Assembly: GCF_011801145.1 (NCBI RefSeq)
Contig: NZ_CP046172.1
Location: 3,348,001-3,412,000, forward strand
Source of the DNA: Nocardia arthritidis
GTDB taxonomy: Bacteria > Actinomycetota > Actinomycetes > Mycobacteriales > Mycobacteriaceae
Reading direction: 5' to 3'
Length of the DNA stretch: 64,000 nt
Shown: in pieces, positions 40,168 through 42,331 of the stretch
How the letters are laid out: every line of letters begins with the position of its first letter
Position numbering within the stretch: position 1 is the first letter of the stretch
Position numbers and translations under genes: made by a program
Notes under the pieces: generated by a model
Seen by the model: only the letters and a program-made list of their open reading frames with translations
What the model was told of the DNA's origin: nothing
Databases searched by the model: none

Positions 40168-40410
40168 TCAGGCGGTATGGCTGCACAGCACCTCGTAGGC
40201 GCGTACGGCGTCTTCGGGAAACACCAGTACTCGCCACGGTTTCCGGCCGATCGGGCCCGGCGCCCCGGCCGGGCCGGTGGTCGCGCGGATCCCGTTGGCC
40301 CGCAAGAGGTCCCGCACGGTGCGTGCGGTGATCGGGTCGGGCACGGTCGCCGCGGCGGCCAGCAGACCGTAGTCGTCGGCCGGGGGCGCGGATCGGTTGG
40401 GCCGCAACAT
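40168..40410 (-). CDS. DUF2007-like small protein linked to qcrB2
   Basis: 80 residues. ITARTVRDLLRANGIRATT and WRVLVFPEDAVRAYEVL give the beta-alpha-beta pattern of DUF2007, a putative signal-transducing small domain. It starts two bases after the stop of the second qcrB and precedes the terminator, so it is the last gene of that operon. Function unknown. Confidence 0.8.
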   Translation of the reverse strand: MLRPNRSAPPADDYGLLAAAATVPDPITARTVRDLLRANGIRATTGPAGAPGPIGRKPWRVLVFPEDAVRAYEVLCSHTA

Positions 40411-40412
40411 GA

Positions 40413-42029
40413 TCAGTGCCCCTCGCTGTCGCGCCTCTGGTATTCCAGGAGTACGGCCAGCTGCTTGCGTTCCTCGGCATGTTCGATCTCGAAGTGCTTC
40501 TCGCTCTCCTGCCGCGGATCGGCCCGCAGGAAGCTGCCGAGACCGGGTTTGCCCGCCGAGCCCAGCTTGTTCATCTTCTTCGGCACCGGAGCCCCCTGGT
40601 ATGCCAGCGGAATCGGATGCCCGTGCTCGTCGACGGGGCCGAGCGCCTGATGCACCTCGACGTACTCACCGTGCGGCAGCCGCTTGACGAGGCCGGTCTC
40701 GATGCCGTGCTCCAGCACCGCCCGGTCGCTGCGCTGCAAGCCGAGGCAGAACCGGTAGGTGATGAAATACGCGATCGGCGGGGCGATCAGCATGCCGATG
40801 CGGCCCATCCAGGTGGTGGCGTTGAGCGAAATATCGAACTTCATCGCGATGATGTCGTTCAAGCACGACAACGAGAGCACCAGATAGAAGGTGATCGCCA
40901 TGGCGCCGATCGCCGTGCGCACCGGCACGTCGCGCGGCCGCTGCAGCAGGTTGTGGGGGGCGTCGTCCTTGGTCAGCTGCTTCTCGATCCACGGGTATAT
41001 GACGAGCACCGTGAACACCAGACCCATGATCACCGCGACCCAGAAGGCCGAGGGGATCGTGTATCTGCCGAGATAGATCTCCCACGGCGGCACCAGCCGG
41101 GCTAGCCCGTCGGTCCACCACATGTAGAAATCCGGTGCCGATCCCGCCGACACCTGCGCCGGGTTGTACGGGCCCAACTGCCAGATCGGGTTGATCTGGA
41201 AGACGCCGCCCATCACCGCGAGCACACCGAGGGTGAACATGAAGAACGCCCCCTGGTCGGCGGCGAACACCGGGACGATGCGCGCACCGACCACATTGCG
41301 TTCGGACCGGCCGGGCCCCGGGAACTGCGTGTGCTTCTGGTACCAGACCAGCGCGATATGCGCCGCGATCAACGCGAGCATGATGCCGGGGAACAGCAGC
41401 ACATGCGTGATGAACAGGCGCGGAATCAATACCGTCCCTGGGAATTCGCCACCGAACAGCGCCCAGTGGATCCAGGTGCCGATGATCGGGACGCTCATCG
41501 TGATACCGCCCAGCGGTGAACGCAGGCCGGTGCCGGACAGCAGATCGTCGGGCAGCGAGTAGCCGAAATAGCCTTCGAACAAGGCCAGGATCAGCAGCAG
41601 CGCGCCGATCACCCAGTTCGCCTCGCGTGGCTTGCGGAACGCGCCGGTGAAGAAGACCCGCAGGCAGTGCAGGATCATCCCGGCCACGAAAAGCAGTGCG
41701 GCCCAATGGTGTACCTGCCGCACGAACAGTCCGCCGCGCACCTCGAACGAGATGTTCAGCGAGCTGGCGTAGGCCGCGGACATGTGCACCCCGCGCATCG
41801 GCTGATACGCGCCGTCGTATACGACCTCCTTCATCGACGGATCGAAGAACAGCGTCAGGTAGATGCCGGAGATCAGCAGGATGATGAAGCTGTACAGGCA
41901 GATCTCGCCGAGCAGGAAGGCCCAGTGGGTCGGAAAGACCTTGTTGATCGAGCGTTTGAGGAATGCGGCGGCCCGGTAGCGCTCGTCGGCTGCGTCGGCG
42001 CGCGCGGCCACCTTCGCGCCCGCACTCAT
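40413..42029 (-). CDS. qcrB2: Second cytochrome bc1 complex cytochrome b subunit (QcrB paralogue)
   Basis: 538 residues, the same length as QcrB at 59416-61032 and about 80% identical by eye. The four haem-ligand histidines appear kept (RQVHHWAAL, MILHCLRV, FITHVLLF, LIAAHIALV), as do the PPWEIYLGRY loop replacing PEWY and the actinobacterial C-terminal extension (GSFLRADPRQESEKHFEIEH). Differences cluster in membrane helices. No qcrA or qcrC accompanies it. Its ATG overlaps the preceding gene's stop (ATGA). It may replace QcrB in the supercomplex under some condition or under inhibitor stress; this is inference. Confidence 0.95.
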   Translation of the reverse strand: MSAGAKVAARADAADERYRAAAFLKRSINKVFPTHWAFLLGEICLYSFIILLISGIYLTLFFDPSMKEVVYDGAYQPMRGVHMSAAYASSLNISFEVRGGLFVRQVHHWAALLFVAGMILHCLRVFFTGAFRKPREANWVIGALLLILALFEGYFGYSLPDDLLSGTGLRSPLGGITMSVPIIGTWIHWALFGGEFPGTVLIPRLFITHVLLFPGIMLALIAAHIALVWYQKHTQFPGPGRSERNVVGARIVPVFAADQGAFFMFTLGVLAVMGGVFQINPIWQLGPYNPAQVSAGSAPDFYMWWTDGLARLVPPWEIYLGRYTIPSAFWVAVIMGLVFTVLVIYPWIEKQLTKDDAPHNLLQRPRDVPVRTAIGAMAITFYLVLSLSCLNDIIAMKFDISLNATTWMGRIGMLIAPPIAYFITYRFCLGLQRSDRAVLEHGIETGLVKRLPHGEYVEVHQALGPVDEHGHPIPLAYQGAPVPKKMNKLGSAGKPGLGSFLRADPRQESEKHFEIEHAEERKQLAVLLEYQRRDSEGH

Positions 42030-42331
42030 CGGTTGATCCCGTATGAACCCAGTAGTTCGAACGGGACCGGCGCGGGGGAGCCGACGGCCCATTTGCCGAC
42101 CGTCGCCTGTAGGGCCCGTGCCGCCTCGATGGCCGGGAGCGGATTCTCCACACCCTCGTCGAGTTCCAGCAACGCGACGAAATCCTTTGTGCCAGTGACC
42201 CGGCCGTAGGTGAAGCGGACACCGGCGGGTGCGGCGGCGTGCAGCGCCTGGAACGCGGACTCGACGGCGGCGGCCACCTCCGCCGCCCCCGCGTCCTCGG
42301 TCACCGCGTAGCGGATGATCAGCTGAGGCAT
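42026..42331 (-). CDS. Small alpha-beta barrel-like protein coupled to qcrB2
   Basis: 101 residues, PQLIIRYAVTEDAGAAEVAAAV then a C-terminal half with VTGTKDFVALLELDEG. The spacing of strands and helices suggests a dimeric alpha-beta barrel (antibiotic biosynthesis monooxygenase-like) domain, though no family is certain. The ribosome site AAGGAG (42338-42343 on the minus strand) is six bases from ATG 42331 and touches ATG 42337, so 42331 is the start. It is first in the qcrB2 operon and overlaps qcrB2 by four bases. Confidence 0.8.
   Translation of the reverse strand: MPQLIIRYAVTEDAGAAEVAAAVESAFQALHAAAPAGVRFTYGRVTGTKDFVALLELDEGVENPLPAIEAARALQATVGKWAVGSPAPVPFELLGSYGINR

Follow-up and report, generated by a model that had tools for sequence, protein, structure and literature searches.

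Why would a bacterium keep a second cytochrome b apart from the subunits that such a protein works with? The question arises in a 64,000-nucleotide (nt) stretch of Nocardia arthritidis (NCBI RefSeq assembly GCF_011801145.1, contig NZ_CP046172.1, positions 3,348,001 to 3,412,000 of the forward strand; "the window", whose own positions are used below). Here a second qcrB gene, qcrB2, lies on the minus strand between two small genes, A and C, and a complete canonical qcrC-qcrA-qcrB1 set stands elsewhere in the window. We regard it as an evenly balanced possibility that QcrB2 is a stress-induced, phenazine- and quinone-tolerant spare cytochrome b that replaces QcrB1 in the bcc-aa3 complex. The features on which the argument turns are these:

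40413 to 42029, minus strand: qcrB2, orphan cytochrome b paralogue of 538 residues, with S178-P179-L180 near the quinol-oxidation (Qo) site (Mycobacterium tuberculosis numbering)
42026 to 42337, minus strand: gene A, 103 residues, predicted ABM-like alpha/beta barrel fold
40168 to 40410, minus strand: gene C, 80 residues, DUF2007-like ferredoxin-like fold
42370 to 42395, minus strand: ECF41-like promoter core GTCAC-n17-CGTC, 32 nt upstream of the gene A ATG
40078 to 40116, minus strand: probable terminator of the unit, a 16-bp stem-loop followed by a short U run
39549 to 40010, minus strand: F420H2-dependent quinone reductase family gene, past the hairpin
57351 to 61032, plus strand: canonical qcrC-qcrA-qcrB1 set (Pfam), presumed source of partner subunits
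59416 to 61032: qcrB1, within the canonical set

QcrB2 is an intact cytochrome b in a compact unit

QcrB2 has the sequence features of an actinobacterial QcrB. A first-pass annotation, made from the sequence alone, had described an intact second QcrB of 538 residues with no qcrA or qcrC beside it, and both points stand. The reading frame is whole and 436 of 537 aligned positions are identical to QcrB1 (81%, three gap positions in a pairwise alignment). Neither qcrA nor qcrC adjoins qcrB2; the set that Pfam detects in the window is the one at 57351-61032. The protein matches the actinobacterial QcrB model NF050120 with 753.8 bits (cut-off 500) over model positions 2-458 of 458 and carries the C-terminal extension of that family. 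Histidines 107, 108, 121, 209, 224 and 233, core residues that include the haem ligands, occur in all 70 canonical QcrBs and in all 25 orphan QcrBs linked to a gene C (C-linked orphans). The frameshift or loss of haem ligands that the annotation had named as counterevidence did not appear.

The unit is tightly packed. As annotated, the qcrB2 start overlaps the gene A stop as ATGA and two bases separate the qcrB2 stop from gene C. The predicted terminator also held up: a strong stem-loop lies about 50 bp past gene C (-41.1 kcal/mol, z -6.1), and a consensus terminator scan did not return it, presumably because its U run is short.

QcrB2 is conserved beyond this genome. Among 148 sampled Nocardia genomes, the one under study included, orthologues at 86-87% identity occur in at least five (G044, G116, G009, G120 and G134). 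The ratio of nonsynonymous to synonymous substitution rates is 0.04-0.19 among the six QcrB2 orthologues and 0.12-0.29 for QcrB1; by this measure QcrB2 is under purifying selection. The neighbouring F420H2-dependent quinone reductase gene is kept in three of the four orthologous loci where it is visible.

A passing local duplicate, kept by dosage or drift with gene C as a bystander, would account for some of this picture. The two qcrB genes are 17.4 kb apart here and 17.7-19.0 kb apart, on the same contig, in four orthologous genomes (in G009 they fall on separate contigs). More than one QcrB match is found in 99 of the 148 genomes, part of them fragments, and some orphan copies appear broken. 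We nevertheless judge this explanation improbable. In a tree of 107 QcrB sequences a single branch sets off the 25 C-linked orphans, which lie beside four canonical QcrBs; its support by the SH-like approximate likelihood-ratio test (SH-aLRT) is 52 and rises to 90 once three plasmid copies are included. The orphans branch away from the qcrB1 genes of the genus with moderate support. The C-linked group is moreover under purifying selection, gene C is kept and the promoter core is often kept.

Other orphan QcrBs form groups of their own. A C-less QcrB3 group of nine rows and a third small group of three rows, the latter nested among canonical QcrBs, both lie apart from the C-linked orphans. In the QcrB3 group, six of nine rows have M at position 317 and six of nine have G at 338 (M. 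tuberculosis numbering). N. arthritidis itself has a third QcrB (G000:C1:287731; 8968-10597 of the fetched locus L012), which is 74.5% identical to QcrB2 and stands alone at what we take to be a tgt/gluQ locus, which nine other Nocardia loci fetched have in common with it. Five smaller Nocardia genomes (G063, G070, G098, G137 and G144) have four reduced-score QcrB matches apiece.

Relatives carry orphan QcrBs in and beside toxin gene clusters

The genomic company of orphan qcrB genes points to toxic redox compounds. In N. aurantia (G091) and in G143, an ECF41 sigma factor gene, an ABM gene, qcrB and gene C are contiguous with phzA/B, C, E, F and G and two flavoenzyme genes; G085 has the same unit, and the 20 kb retrieved there hold no phenazine gene. 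A Rhodococcus erythropolis plasmid (NZ_CP091857) holds the same kinds of phenazine-cluster genes, including an orphan QcrB, ABM and C, and its ABM protein shares 60% identity with that of N. aurantia over 93 residues. QcrB lies 9.7-9.8 kb from C in six of the seven Rhodococcus plasmids that carry this C, with the annotation viewed for one of them.

Clusters of other kinds add to the pattern. On a plasmid of R. erythropolis BG43 an orphan qcrB lies 5 kb from aqdC2, the gene for a dioxygenase of PQS, an alkylquinolone. Three Streptomyces plasmids carry a qcrB, with no qcrA or qcrC listed, close to a type III polyketide synthase gene; clusters of this kind make naphthoquinones. In such Streptomyces plasmid loci (L311, L312 and L315) a DUF3099 gene follows qcrB, and an aminotransferase gene is near besides the polyketide synthase gene, with a cupin gene in two of the three. 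Another, L313 (8896-12575), has qcrB with ctaD and a gene for cytochrome oxidase subunit 4, and no qcrA or qcrC listed nearby.

The association is local rather than general. PHZA_PHZB matches occur in 18 of the 148 Nocardia genomes, 15 of them above the cut-off and five strong (E <1e-70). The orphan unit adjoins the phenazine cluster in two of those five, which rules out a genus-wide link between phenazine genes and orphan QcrBs. We also discarded a phage origin of the unit, for which no phage match was found, and a Tsukamurella plasmid copy as an orphan, as it has qcrC and qcrA alongside.

A Qo-site residue pair marks QcrB2 and some of its relatives

QcrB2 differs from canonical QcrBs at a position tied to inhibitor resistance. 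Canonical Nocardia QcrBs read A-A-F at 178-180 in 43 of 43 cases, against S178-P179-L180 in QcrB2 (M. tuberculosis numbering, the QcrB2 position plus 7). The S178-P179 pair is present in all six QcrB2s, in nine of the 19 other C-linked orphans and in the Rhodococcus phenazine-cluster copy; it is found in none of 70 canonical QcrBs, one of which has P179 alone. This single-site comparison excludes the Streptomyces plasmid orphans, and its alignment is without canonical Streptomyces QcrBs. According to the accessible part of one report (PMC6739496), A178T and A178V are published inhibitor-resistance changes. Further orphans vary at 317, 313 and 338. M311W, a candidate signature of the group, was dropped because only the QcrB2 of N. 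arthritidis carries it (one of six).

The pair may be shared by descent or by convergence. A common origin of the Rhodococcus phenazine-cluster copy with the Nocardia group was not rejected (approximately unbiased test, p 0.42), and both routes are possible because the placement of that copy in the tree is unsure.

Resistance positions as a class do not establish tolerance. In 18 uncorrected enrichment tests, the C-linked orphans gave p 0.13-0.84 over six settings, the QcrB3 group 0.005-0.052 and both together 0.036-0.43. We rejected such enrichment as proof. The annotation had proposed that QcrB2 could supply another bc1 core on which natural QcrB inhibitors act less, and the phenazine clusters, the alkylquinolone locus and the S178-P179 pair lend this idea independent support; the tolerance itself stays a prediction from sequence.

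An ECF41-type promoter core precedes many C-linked orphans

The unit has a candidate switch of its own. GTCAC-n17-CGTC at 42370-42395 is the sole strict match in the window on either strand, and a gap of 32-39 nt separates the core from the first open reading frame (ORF) at every one of the six QcrB2 loci. The published ECF41 consensus is TGTCACA-n16-CGTC, as given in the accessible part of Wecke et al. 2012 (PMC3426412). The site here, AGTCACC-n16-CGTC, agrees with it in core and spacing; the outermost base at each end of the -35 box differs.

This core tracks the C-linked orphans. An initial ECF41 pattern matched 6 of 37 orphans; the strict core was set after this and an alignment of the orthologous loci. 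Twelve of the 25 C-linked orphans have the strict core upstream (0.2 expected), versus none of 12 other orphans. It also precedes none of 70 canonical qcrBs, a weak control because that upstream stretch lies in qcrA. A looser core, written after further alignments, is found for 18 of 25 (0.5 expected), and its reversed control for 0 of 25. P-values for the core are overstated because the sequences are related; within the C-linked group the strict core appears in three branches and the loose core in four.

Sigma factor genes follow the same distribution. We counted as ECF41-type those with regions 2 and 4 and SnoaL_2, the last just below its cut-off. Of 31 distinct C-linked loci, 12 have such a gene no more than 5 kb away (four of these loci have less than 1.1 kb of flanking sequence to one side), versus none of 10 other orphan loci. 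Judging from 23 ECF41-type matches in the 10-Mb genome, chance would give about 0.8. No ECF41-type sigma gene was found in the window.

These data also bear on a different role, in which QcrB2 is an isoform adapted to redox or oxygen conditions: the complex would be the same but would favour another quinone or another potential during oxidative stress, and toxin tolerance would be incidental. Control of the ECF41 type would be a stress route, the adjoining gene belongs to the F420H2-dependent quinone reductase family, and S178-P179 could alter quinol binding as well as inhibitor binding. Such an isoform does not, however, predict the repeated placement of orphan qcrB in or near clusters that make or degrade toxic redox compounds, and we think it rather unlikely, if the strongest of the competing explanations.

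Gene C recurs with orphan QcrBs, and gene A is dispensable

Gene C is, by its position across loci, a real recurrent partner of orphan QcrB. It is matched in 43 of 148 Nocardia genomes. One set of 30 loci has it immediately 3' of an orphan QcrB in 24 cases, and a second set, of 31 named Nocardia loci, in 23; the sets overlap, and some of the QcrBs look broken. All five loci with QcrB2 orthologues keep it, with a contig end cutting it in G009. Its description as DUF2007-like holds at a sub-threshold level (PF09413, 19.1 bits, gathering cut-off 25.7). The predicted fold is ferredoxin-like, and the top Foldseek match is weak (2hfv, E 0.015, root-mean-square deviation 12.8). This structure is presumably a DUF2007 member. 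PII-type proteins are also weakly matched. At 41 loci outside Nocardia a C relative occurs with no qcrB, and we take its neighbours to be murA (at 38 of the 41) and the atp operon. Loci of Geodermatophilaceae and Frankia kin (L143-L184) encode longer C relatives of about 104-160 residues, likewise beside what we take to be murA and the atp operon, one of them with a likely N-terminal membrane helix.

Such a partner raises the thought that QcrB2 works outside bc1, for example as a haem b/quinone sensor, or as a sink, and that C is its PII-like partner in signalling. The partner subunit genes do not adjoin qcrB2, C has its ferredoxin-like fold with weak matches to 2hfv and PII-type proteins, and Pfam calls DUF2007 a putative signal transducing protein. 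Yet the full-length core, the C-terminal extension and the 81% identity favour the same complex, and the C relatives examined outside Nocardia chromosomes sit without QcrB. We find this role very improbable.

Gene A is cut down in the relatives that keep qcrB2. Its middle is deleted in all five orthologous loci, leaving a leader ORF of 17-27 codons, with the promoter core, ribosome site, first codons of A and ATGA overlap retained; in G134 its C-terminal tail is still recognisable. Because A is reduced to a leader in these loci, it is dispensable there, as far as the comparison of loci tells. We could thus rule it out as a required assembly factor: only its ends or its start survive. The first-pass annotation had cast both small proteins as assembly or sensing factors, which fails for A, and its exact unit of full-length A, QcrB2 and C is complete in none of the five loci. 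By the test that it had set itself, absence of the unit from relatives, only the QcrB-C pair and the analogous ABM-QcrB-C units of three Nocardia stand.

Gene A itself is rare. It has 22 database matches at E <=0.001, the query itself counted, and matches in 8 of 148 Nocardia genomes; only in N. arthritidis is it less than 1.5 kb from a qcrB. Its annotation as barrel-like fits the predicted fold (predicted local distance difference test score 85.7), with structural matches that are weak (ABM-type barrels by Foldseek, all E >0.02). Pfam gave no ABM (PF03992) match and just a sub-threshold bPH_6 match.

A model for QcrB2 as a replaceable target

The most economical reading takes QcrB2 as a toxin-tolerant spare cytochrome b that can be induced, with C as its accessory, and takes the cassette to derive from, or run parallel to, phenazine-cluster self-protection. 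With somewhat less assurance than we give to the spare cytochrome b itself, we propose that phenazine clusters of Nocardia and Rhodococcus hold a toxin-proof S178-P179 QcrB together with ABM and C, and that the unit in the window is a stand-alone, ECF41-wired version, an inducible and swappable bc1-aa3 core. An ECF41-type sigma factor would switch the unit on upon a toxin or redox signal. Ribosomes would load at the start of gene A, or of the short leader in relatives, and continue to qcrB2 through the ATGA overlap. QcrB2 would then join the housekeeping QcrA, QcrC and aa3 oxidase, its altered Qo region reducing the binding of a toxin that would block the normal Qo site, and gene C may tune assembly or sensing. 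On this mechanism the unit would serve self-resistance or immunity, as a cassette that has stayed on in the absence of phenazine genes.

Several observations count against the proposal. The N. arthritidis genome has no PHZA_PHZB match and its cassette is not inside a toxin cluster, and the phenazine genes of G033, G034 and G076 lack an orphan QcrB unit in the surrounding 16-20 kb that were retrieved. The changes of C-linked orphans show no excess at published resistance positions (3/11 versus 132/354 invariant columns, p 0.84), and several orphan qcrBs appear broken. Thirteen of the 25 C-linked orphans lack the strict core upstream, the N. aurantia group with its ABM-QcrB-C units among them, as do the three Rhodococcus plasmid copies; the sigma factors near two of those three are not of the ECF41 type. 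A further 11 loci have gene C but no QcrB; short QcrB remnants are left at two of them, and the promoter core is missing from all 11.

The model departs from each known system that it resembles. QcrB2 shares whole-chain homology, core histidines and the C-terminal extension with the QcrB of the actinobacterial bcc-aa3 complex (PDB 7e1v and others; NF050120). Unlike it, QcrB2 has no adjoining qcrC or qcrA, has its own promoter core and is followed by the partner gene C. ECF41 loci offer the same promoter core and spacing, and ECF41-type sigma genes repeatedly lie near the units in relatives. In the accessible part of the ECF41 study, genes for carboxymuconolactone decarboxylases, oxidoreductases or epimerases are the only detectable targets (PMC3426412). 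A respiratory subunit would add a new class to these; the sigma gene, too, is absent from the window. The LexABC efflux system provides myxin self-resistance in Lysobacter (PMC7927275, as far as its accessible part describes it) and is likewise phenazine self-protection, but it works by efflux, not by a replacement target.

Another parallel is target-duplication self-resistance: in relatives, too, a second and divergent copy of the supposed target lies within or next to a toxin gene cluster. It differs in that the target would be a respiratory cytochrome b and that the cassette here has no cluster. Among known cases, producers carry resistant copies of gyrase, beta-tubulin or the proteasome. 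We know of no earlier target-replacement resistance for a respiratory cytochrome b. A literature search, mostly at the level of titles and abstract openings, returned no description of such an inducible, toxin-tolerant spare QcrB.

If the model is right, QcrB2 would be the first known case of target-replacement resistance for a cytochrome b and the first respiratory target of an ECF41 sigma factor, giving these regulators a concrete target. It would explain how producers of respiratory poisons continue to respire. In relatives of Nocardia QcrB serves as a drug target (PMC6325196, in its accessible part), and natural QcrB ligands would be findable through the clusters that hold an orphan qcrB.
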